A stretch of 64,000 nucleotides of DNA. Source: Balneolaceae bacterium. Its GTDB lineage: Bacteria; Bacteroidota; Rhodothermia; Balneolales; Balneolaceae. The translations under genes were made by a program, and so were the position numbers. Location of the stretch: NCBI GenBank assembly GCA_034521445.1, contig JAXHMM010000006.1, forward strand, positions 248,001 to 312,000, written 5' to 3'. Positions within the stretch are counted from its first letter, which is position 1. Each line of letters starts with the position of its first letter. The notes below the pieces were generated by a model, which saw only the letters and a program-made list of their open reading frames with translations, made no database searches and was not told where the DNA came from. Of this stretch, positions 8,180 through 10,115 are shown piece after piece.

Positions 8180-8620
8180 TCAGCGATCCAAAATTAAGGT
8201 TACCGGGCCATCGTTACTGAGATCAACCTCCATATACGAGCCAAAACGGCCGGCGGCCACAGGACCAGCGAAGTTGTTCTCCAGGTAGTGAAGCATATAG
8301 TCGTAGAGTTCCTCCGCATGTCCGGGATCAGCCGCTTCGCTGTAGCTGGGACGGTTACCCCTGGAGGGGTCACCATAGATGGTAAACTGCGATACGATCA
8401 ACAGTTCCCCTTCCACATCTTCCACAGAGAGATTCATCCTGCCCTCCGGATCATCAAAGATTCTCATCTTTCGTATTTTTTCACAGCACCACTCCACATC
8501 CTCGCGCTTGTCTCCCTTGCGAATACCTACGAGCAGAAGCAGGCCTCTGCCGATGACTCCCAACTTCTCGCTTTCCGAACGAACCGATGCACTGCTGACG
8601 CGCTGGATAACTATTTTCAT
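8180..8620 (-). CDS. dtd: D-aminoacyl-tRNA deacylase
   Basis: A 146-residue cytoplasmic enzyme that hydrolyses D-amino acids from mischarged tRNA. The start MKIVIQRVSSASV is the family N-terminus. LLIVSQFTIYGD (SQFT motif, catalytic Thr) lies at about residues 74-85. The expected Gly-Pro dyad at the C-terminal active-site loop (NDGPVTLILDR) is present. The length matches bacterial Dtd exactly. It leads a two-gene leftward unit with the metalloenzyme gene 3 bases downstream, and its 5' end borders the AT-rich presumed origin region. Confidence 0.95.
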   Translation of the reverse strand: MKIVIQRVSSASVRSESEKLGVIGRGLLLLVGIRKGDKREDVEWCCEKIRKMRIFDDPEGRMNLSVEDVEGELLIVSQFTIYGDPSRGNRPSYSEAADPGHAEELYDYMLHYLENNFAGPVAAGRFGSYMEVDLSNDGPVTLILDR

Positions 8621-9092
8621 GGGTGGATGGGGTTACAAAATTTGTGGATTATTATGTGTATAACTCACTTACCCTTGCTATTTCCTCGAATATGACAAAA
8701 TTTTCCACATCAATTCACATTCAAAACCCGCTATCCACAAGTTTTCAAGAGTCATTACAGCGTGCATAACTAGAAAACAATCCACATTGGACCTTTTTTA
8801 TTTGTGGATATCTCCTTTTTACTTCCCCTAAATACTTGTTTTTTATAGGTCCCTTTATTAACAATTTTATAAACATTTGATTCTCTCCCCGCTTGGGCAT
8901 GTGCATACATTTGTTATCAACTTATCCACGGGACCTACAATGGACTACAAATATTATATATTCTATTGTTATTACCCTTTACCTGTGGATTGTGTGGAGA
9001 AATAGTTTTAAAAAAGCGGGGGCTTCTTTCTATATTTCTATTCGTCCAAAAAACGAAACCACTATTCAATTTTCGCAATAATCCATGAAGCG
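8621..9092. other. oriC: Candidate chromosomal replication origin (oriC)
   Basis: A gene-free, strongly AT-rich gap between divergent genes. It contains many 9-mers close to the DnaA box TTATNCACA. Exact: 8655-8663 (minus strand, TTATACACA). One mismatch: 8643-8651 (minus, TAATCCACA), 8701-8709 (TTTTCCACA), 8731-8739 (CTATCCACA), 8761-8769 (minus, TTATGCACG), 8803-8811 (minus, ATATCCACA) and 8922-8930 (TTATCCACG). Two mismatches: 8778-8786 and 8984-8992. The stretch 8812-8885 is nearly all A/T and could be the unwinding element. On sampled lines G exceeds C on the top strand to the right even inside minus-strand genes, and C exceeds G to the left even inside a plus-strand gene, as expected at an origin. 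dnaA itself is not in the window. Confidence 0.75.
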
Positions 9093-10115
9093 ATGAGCGA
9101 TTCCGATAGATCTCTTAAGAAATCCCTCACCTACAAGGATGCCGGTGTAGACATCGAAGCCGGCGAACGTATGGTGGAGTCCATCAAAGGAGTAGTGCAG
9201 GAGACCCACAACGAATCGGTGCTTCGCAACATAGGGGGATTTGGTGGACTTTTCCGGGCTGATTTTACCGGTATGGACGATCCGGTACTCGTTAGCAGCG
9301 TGGACGGGGTGGGGACCAAGCTGATCGTGGCCTTTCGCTGCGAAATATACCACACGGTAGGGCAGGACCTTGTGAACCACTGCGTGAATGATATCGCCGT
9401 CTGTGGTGCAGAACCTCTTTTTTTTCTGGACTATTTTTCCACGGGAAAACTGGAGGAGCATGTAGGCTACGAAGTGGTACGGGGATTCGCAAAAGCCTGC
9501 AGGGAAAATGGTGTTGCGCTGGTGGGAGGTGAGACTGCCGAGATGCCGGATATCTACGACGAGGGTGAATTTGACCTGGCGGGCACGGTTGTGGGTGTGG
9601 TGGACCGCAGCCGCATCATTACGGGAGAGGAAACCAGGAAGGGTGATCTGCTGCTGGGCTTGGCGAGCTCAGGGCTTCATACCAACGGTTATTCTCTGGC
9701 CCGCAAGGTGCTCTTCCGGGAGTACGCCGTAGATGAATATGTGGAGGAACTGGATGCCACCCTGGGGATATCCATGCTGAGCATACATAAGTCCTACCTT
9801 CCGCACATTCGAAAACTGAAGGAGTTGGAAGGGCTTCGGGCATTTGCTCATATCACCGGCGGAGGTATCGCCGGGAATACGCGCAGGGTACTACCCGGGG
9901 AAAGAAAAGCCGATATAGACTGGGAGGCGTGGGAGCGTCCACCCATTTTCAGGTTGATTCAGCGGTTGGGCAACGTACCGGAACAGGATATGCGCGCCAC
10001 CTTTAATCTTGGCATTGGTCTGGTGGCCGTGGTGGATCCACAGGCCGAGAATGCGGTATACGAGGCGGCAGAGGAGCTGGGCGAGGAGATCATTCCCATC
10101 GGAACCGTCAACTGA
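9093..10115 (+). CDS. purM: Phosphoribosylformylglycinamidine cyclo-ligase
   Basis: A 340-residue PurM (AIR synthetase), the fifth step of de novo purine synthesis: FGAM + ATP to AIR in the cytoplasm. The signatures are YKDAGVDIEAGERMVESIK at the N-terminus, SSVDGVGTKLIVAF (ATP/metal segment), GQDLVNHCVNDIAVCGAEPLFFLDY, ALVGGETAEMPDIY and GLASSGLHTNGYSLAR. The length is that of a monofunctional PurM. It is the first rightward gene after the presumed origin and is followed after 8 bases by an AtuA-related gene, so the two are probably co-transcribed. There is no Shine-Dalgarno; an ATG 9 bases upstream reads straight into a stop. Confidence 0.96.
   Translation: MSDSDRSLKKSLTYKDAGVDIEAGERMVESIKGVVQETHNESVLRNIGGFGGLFRADFTGMDDPVLVSSVDGVGTKLIVAFRCEIYHTVGQDLVNHCVNDIAVCGAEPLFFLDYFSTGKLEEHVGYEVVRGFAKACRENGVALVGGETAEMPDIYDEGEFDLAGTVVGVVDRSRIITGEETRKGDLLLGLASSGLHTNGYSLARKVLFREYAVDEYVEELDATLGISMLSIHKSYLPHIRKLKELEGLRAFAHITGGGIAGNTRRVLPGERKADIDWEAWERPPIFRLIQRLGNVPEQDMRATFNLGIGLVAVVDPQAENAVYEAAEELGEEIIPIGTVN

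Follow-up and report, generated by a model that had tools for sequence, protein, structure and literature searches.

This Balneolales bacterium very probably begins chromosome replication in the intergenic region between dtd and purM, which, judging from its sequence, would be a DnaA-type origin (oriC) opened at about 8935-8984. The gap occupies 8621-9092 of the window, the 64,000-nucleotide stretch analysed here (G000:C6:248001-312000), which belongs to a 3.2 Mb genome in 18 contigs, among them C5, C6 and C7. An earlier note on this DNA had described an AT-rich gap of about 470 bases between divergent genes, and such a gap is indeed present (472 bp, 65% AT, with dtd on the minus strand and purM on the plus strand). 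The same note had proposed the gap as a candidate oriC, to be checked by GC skew, by a search for DnaA boxes and DnaA-trios, and by conservation in relatives. That reading is now supported by a skew minimum at the gap, by boxes that keep their register among relatives, by a trio-like block, and by a switch in strand composition in the relatives themselves. The sole match in an Rfam scan was a tRNA. The features are as follows.

8180-8620, minus strand: dtd, D-aminoacyl-tRNA deacylase, left neighbour (PF02580, E 2e-54)
8621-9092, no strand: predicted oriC, the dtd-purM intergenic region (from the box cluster versus shuffles, the skew minimum at 9134 and in-register conservation)
8643-8663, minus strand: DnaA box pair TAATCCACA (8643-8651) and TTATACACA (8655-8663), 12 bp apart; at most two mismatches in 23/25 and 24/25 relatives
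8701-8709, plus strand: DnaA box TTTTCCACA; at most two mismatches in 16/25 relatives
8731-8739, plus strand: DnaA box CTATCCACA; at most two mismatches in 22/25 relatives
8761-8769, minus strand: weak DnaA-box-like site TTATGCACG; at most two mismatches in only 8/25 relatives
8803-8811, minus strand: DnaA box ATATCCACA; at most two mismatches in 21/25 relatives
8855-8875, plus strand: degenerate DnaA box pair TTATTAACA (8855-8863) and TTATAAACA (8867-8875), in the AT stretch 8812-8885
8914-8930, plus strand: overlapping tandem DnaA boxes TTATCAACT (8914-8922) and TTATCCACG (8922-8930), proposed filament platform; at most two mismatches in 25/25 and 24/25 relatives
8935-8947, plus strand: DnaA-trio-like block CTACAATGGACTA, 4 bases past the box; degenerate in the window
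8935-8984, no strand: proposed DNA unwinding element; includes 8945-8974, the 30-mer of lowest stability in the gap
8984-8992, minus strand: DnaA-box-like site CAATCCACA, far side of the unwinding element; at most one mismatch in 24/25 relatives
8993-9001, minus strand: DnaA box TTCTCCACA; common only to the closest relatives (4/23)
9093-10115, plus strand: purM, AIR synthase, right neighbour (PF00586 and PF02769)

DnaA boxes in the dtd-purM gap

Seven sites in the gap lie one mismatch from the consensus box TTATCCACA, and seven more carry two mismatches. When the gap is shuffled with its dinucleotides preserved, sites with at most one mismatch number 0.23 on average and never more than three (5,000 shuffles), so the observed seven exceed chance, as expected of a DnaA-dependent bacterial oriC. 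The whole window holds 19 such sites against 7.3 expected, the seven in the gap included. Furthermore, the gap is the densest box cluster in the 600 kb scanned (C6:1-400000 and C5:410001-610000); elsewhere in these segments there are at most four boxes per 470-bp stretch. The earlier note had counted one exact and six single-mismatch boxes. No site in the gap is an exact copy of TTATCCACA; the one called exact, TTATACACA at 8655-8663, is so only under TTATNCACA. This lack of an exact TTATCCACA in the gap counts against the origin reading.

Conservation of the array among relatives

The relatives that carry names are Gracilimonas mengyeensis, G. amylolytica and one Balneolaceae MAG, which places the bacterium in Balneolales. 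The purM gene was searched for in 58 relatives, and the comparison was limited to loci with enough flank. Nearly all of these loci keep the arrangement of a reverse dtd, an AT-rich gap and purM, with 3-12 boxes of at most one mismatch. A gene of the DinB superfamily separates the gap from purM in many relatives (for example, at L045 2505-3086); it is absent from the window.

Twelve box sites of the window were scored in an alignment of 26 gaps (the window and 25 relatives). Ten of the twelve positions lie within two mismatches of the consensus in at least 64% of the relatives, and nine do so in at least 84%; at non-box alignment positions, a mean of 0.6% of relatives come this close. The boxes at 8855 and 8867, which have two mismatches each in the window, have at most two in 24/25 and 23/25 relatives, several of them being exact. 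Thus, position and box layout are conserved in register, as expected of a DnaA-dependent bacterial oriC. In one relative (G035), dtd and purM are on different contigs: no boxes accompany purM, but three remain beside dtd, as far from it as usual, up to the point where its contig ends. The boxes have therefore stayed with dtd, which argues that it is dtd, not purM, to which the array is tied.

A DnaA-trio-like block and the likely site of opening

In the basal unwinding system (BUS) of Bacillus subtilis, the DnaA-trio is 3'-GAT-5', the rule being at least three consecutive trios with a box within 16 bp; deviant trios are expected (PMC8287927). The block found here consists of CTA, the complement of this trio (PMC8287927). 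In 25/26 sequences, a CTA lies 4 or 5 bases beyond the overlapping pair TTATCAACT/TTATCCACG, and further CTA or TTA triplets usually come after it. Over the 26 sequences, the 22 bases after the box contain 77 CTA triplets, compared with a shuffle mean of 16.7 and maximum of 29. The relatives share with B. subtilis the tandem boxes, the short spacer, the CTA trios and the unstable DNA.

The window's own copy of the block adjoins the box pair but is degenerate. The pair ends at 8930 and the first CTA is at 8935, well within the 16 bp allowed between tandem boxes and trios; a second CTA follows at 8945, ten bases on, with CAATGGA between them. At least three consecutive trios occur in 11/25 relatives, whereas the window has only these two separated triplets and a run of one, with trios taken as 3'-NAN-5'. 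With fewer than three consecutive trios, the window is not classed as a BUS, although it may work like one, and a block as degenerate as this counts against the origin reading.

The earlier note had also singled out a long AT stretch at 8812-8885. This stretch is real, and no 50-mer in the gap is less stable than the one it contains at 8829-8878. Among 30-mers, however, stability is lowest at 8945-8974, and relatives on average are also least stable at the corresponding place. Opening is therefore assigned to 8935-8984, where paired boxes, a 4-base spacer, a CTA block and the least stable 30-mer occur together as in B. subtilis; this is the likely site rather than 8812-8885. The latter stretch, with its conserved but degenerate box pair, is a second candidate for unwinding.

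Taken together, these features suggest a model. DnaA would bind boxes on both strands, about twelve in all and most of them short of the consensus, and a DnaA-ATP filament would run from the overlapping pair at 8914-8930 across the CTA-type trio block onto one strand. The filament would then open the unstable segment at about 8935-8984, whose far side would be bounded by the box at 8984-8992. Helicase would be loaded at the opened segment, and two forks would depart in opposite directions. The array, its in-register conservation, the skew switch and the order of box pair, spacer, CTA block and unstable DNA are computed directly; DnaA binding, filament formation, melting, helicase loading and use as the sole origin are inferred by analogy with B. 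subtilis.

GC skew and alternatives to an origin in the gap

The cumulative GC-skew curve, which covers 400 kb of C6 (C6:1-400000) within about 1 Mb sampled from the genome, reaches its minimum at C6:257134, or window position 9134, and rises afterwards. Samples farther along C6, at 450, 550, 650 and 727 kb, are all positive. Thus, over this 400 kb, the minimum falls at the gap as had been predicted, and as expected of a DnaA-dependent bacterial oriC; the switch in strand composition that the earlier note placed here is real.

A switch at or near the same gap is also seen in three single-contig relatives, each with dnaA located elsewhere, which supports the proposal of an origin in the gap. 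In G033, samples up to about 280 kb have negative skew; those between 320 kb and about 2.06 Mb are mostly positive, with a single negative one at 1.31 Mb, and those farther on are negative. Its box cluster (320.2 kb) and local cumulative minimum (283.0 kb) are 37 kb apart, a separation that counts against the reading. In G043, the cluster (269.7 kb) and local minimum (267.8 kb) are close; its distant skew samples are irregular, which again counts against. In G069, skew is -0.09 immediately to the left of dtd and +0.05 immediately to the right.

Box clusters also occur elsewhere in the genome. The dnaA gene lies on C5 at 510.7 kb; domains I and III-IV of its product match the DnaA structure 8btg, and the box-reading domain contains GGRDHSTVIHA, as expected of an intact initiator. 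Upstream of dnaA (L001 761-1030) are four boxes, three exact and one near; two of the exact boxes are 98 bp apart, and a similar pair spaced by 98-99 bp is found in G033, G043 and G069. These boxes probably serve dnaA self-regulation. On C7, four exact TTATCCACA boxes fall within 150 bp (C7:68160-68310, L206), flanked by a heavy-metal P-type ATPase gene on one side and a small ORF on the other; the perfect inverted repeat GACTTATCCACA-TCGGC-TGTGGATAAGTC is made up of two of these boxes. As a rival origin, this site was rejected, since C7 skew drifts negative with no switch there and the 35-base C7 element was not found among the 58 relatives. It could be a DnaA-titrating or DARS-like site.

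Given such clusters, the dtd-purM gap might itself be no origin but a region where DnaA is bound for control or titration (datA- or DARS-like, or one through which DnaA controls dtd and purM). Boxes alone would suffice for that role, and those upstream of dnaA and on C7 lie where skew does not switch. The gap cluster, however, sits at the skew minimum, and in relatives its boxes have an ordered arrangement next to a trio block and unstable DNA, so this explanation is very improbable.

Another possibility is that replication begins at dnaA, as in many bacteria, and that the switch at the gap reflects a rearrangement. The origin proposed here does not adjoin dnaA, the one being on C6 and the other on C5, and the upstream boxes, three of them exact, would suit such a view. 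However, skew stays negative throughout 200 kb around dnaA on C5, and in relatives with dnaA at another locus the switch falls together with the gap array. Without a switch at dnaA, this proposal is rejected as having scarcely any chance of being correct.

Finally, gene orientation affects skew in this genome. From hand counts on four lines of sequence, the earlier note had argued that the opposite sign would be expected from gene direction alone, and hence that replication direction was the simpler explanation. The argument fails: third-position GC skew of plus-strand genes is negative on both sides of the gap (-0.19 left, -0.11 right), and minus-strand genes give a positive plus-strand skew on both sides. 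Third positions of coding strands are thus C-rich here, so that gene direction alone yields the sign that was counted, and the four lines are confounded. The conclusion nevertheless survives a control for gene strand. With the gene-strand mean subtracted, third-position skew differs by 0.071 between the right and left of the gap (210 genes, called simply as longest ORFs with a minimum of 150 codons; 0/20,000 permutations). The replication component is therefore real, beyond gene strand. Consequently, the notion that the switch reflects only gene orientation and the boxes an AT-rich coincidence, for all that gene strand does drive third-position skew with the sign of the hand counts, is already contradicted by the difference between sides within each orientation, the box excess and the in-register conservation, and is wholly improbable.

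Comparison with other origins

In kind, a DnaA-dependent oriC unlinked from dnaA is known; the interest lies in its place at dtd across the Balneolales sampled and in the degenerate trio block. Like the DnaA-dependent origins of Ori-Finder/DoriC, the gap is an AT-rich intergenic cluster of DnaA boxes at a GC-skew minimum; it differs in lying between dtd and purM, not beside dnaA, and in its want of an exact consensus box. In Rhodothermia outside the order (sister families), several genomes likewise have boxes, upstream of dnaA, and G060 has a clear skew switch. However, 14 of these genomes do not have purM beside dtd and have no more than one box within 1 kb upstream of dtd. In G060, the 20-kb sample at dnaA and the sample at 200 kb have skews of opposite sign, and dtd lies within the negative-skew arm. 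As predicted from these sequences, then, the dtd site is common across the order sampled and is not used in the sister groups examined. In one genus outside the order (G102 and G113), a second strong DnaA-family match besides dnaA is present (G102:C1:611580, L204; G113:C1:206270, L205; E about 1e-61), with several near-consensus boxes nearby.

A broader proposal joins two parts: that an order-wide Balneolales origin is fixed at dtd, unlinked from dnaA and absent from that place in sister families, and that this species melts its origin through a trio block that departs from the rule, its CTA triplets at 8935 and 8945 not being consecutive. The two together are put forward tentatively, with doubt slightly outweighing belief. 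If true, the deviant block would let one judge from a natural case how much of the trio sequence DnaA requires, the window species being a case of a decayed trio element. The literature searched, with prediction databases such as DoriC outside that search, yielded no origin study for Balneolales and no report of a dtd-purM origin, and nothing relevant on Balneolales, Salinibacter or purM-linked origins. The present analysis provides a precise, testable origin for the order, together with a naturally occurring alignment of a single origin, where roughly ten box positions hold register as the box sequences drift. Such an origin is useful when growth rates are estimated from read coverage, and when the first position of a genome record is chosen.

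Within the gap, toward its purM end, TATATTTC (9033-9040) lies within a TATATTT motif that is strongly conserved in relatives. The promoter -10 element of Bacteroidota is TAnnTTTG, which this motif resembles, and it is probably part of a promoter on the purM side.
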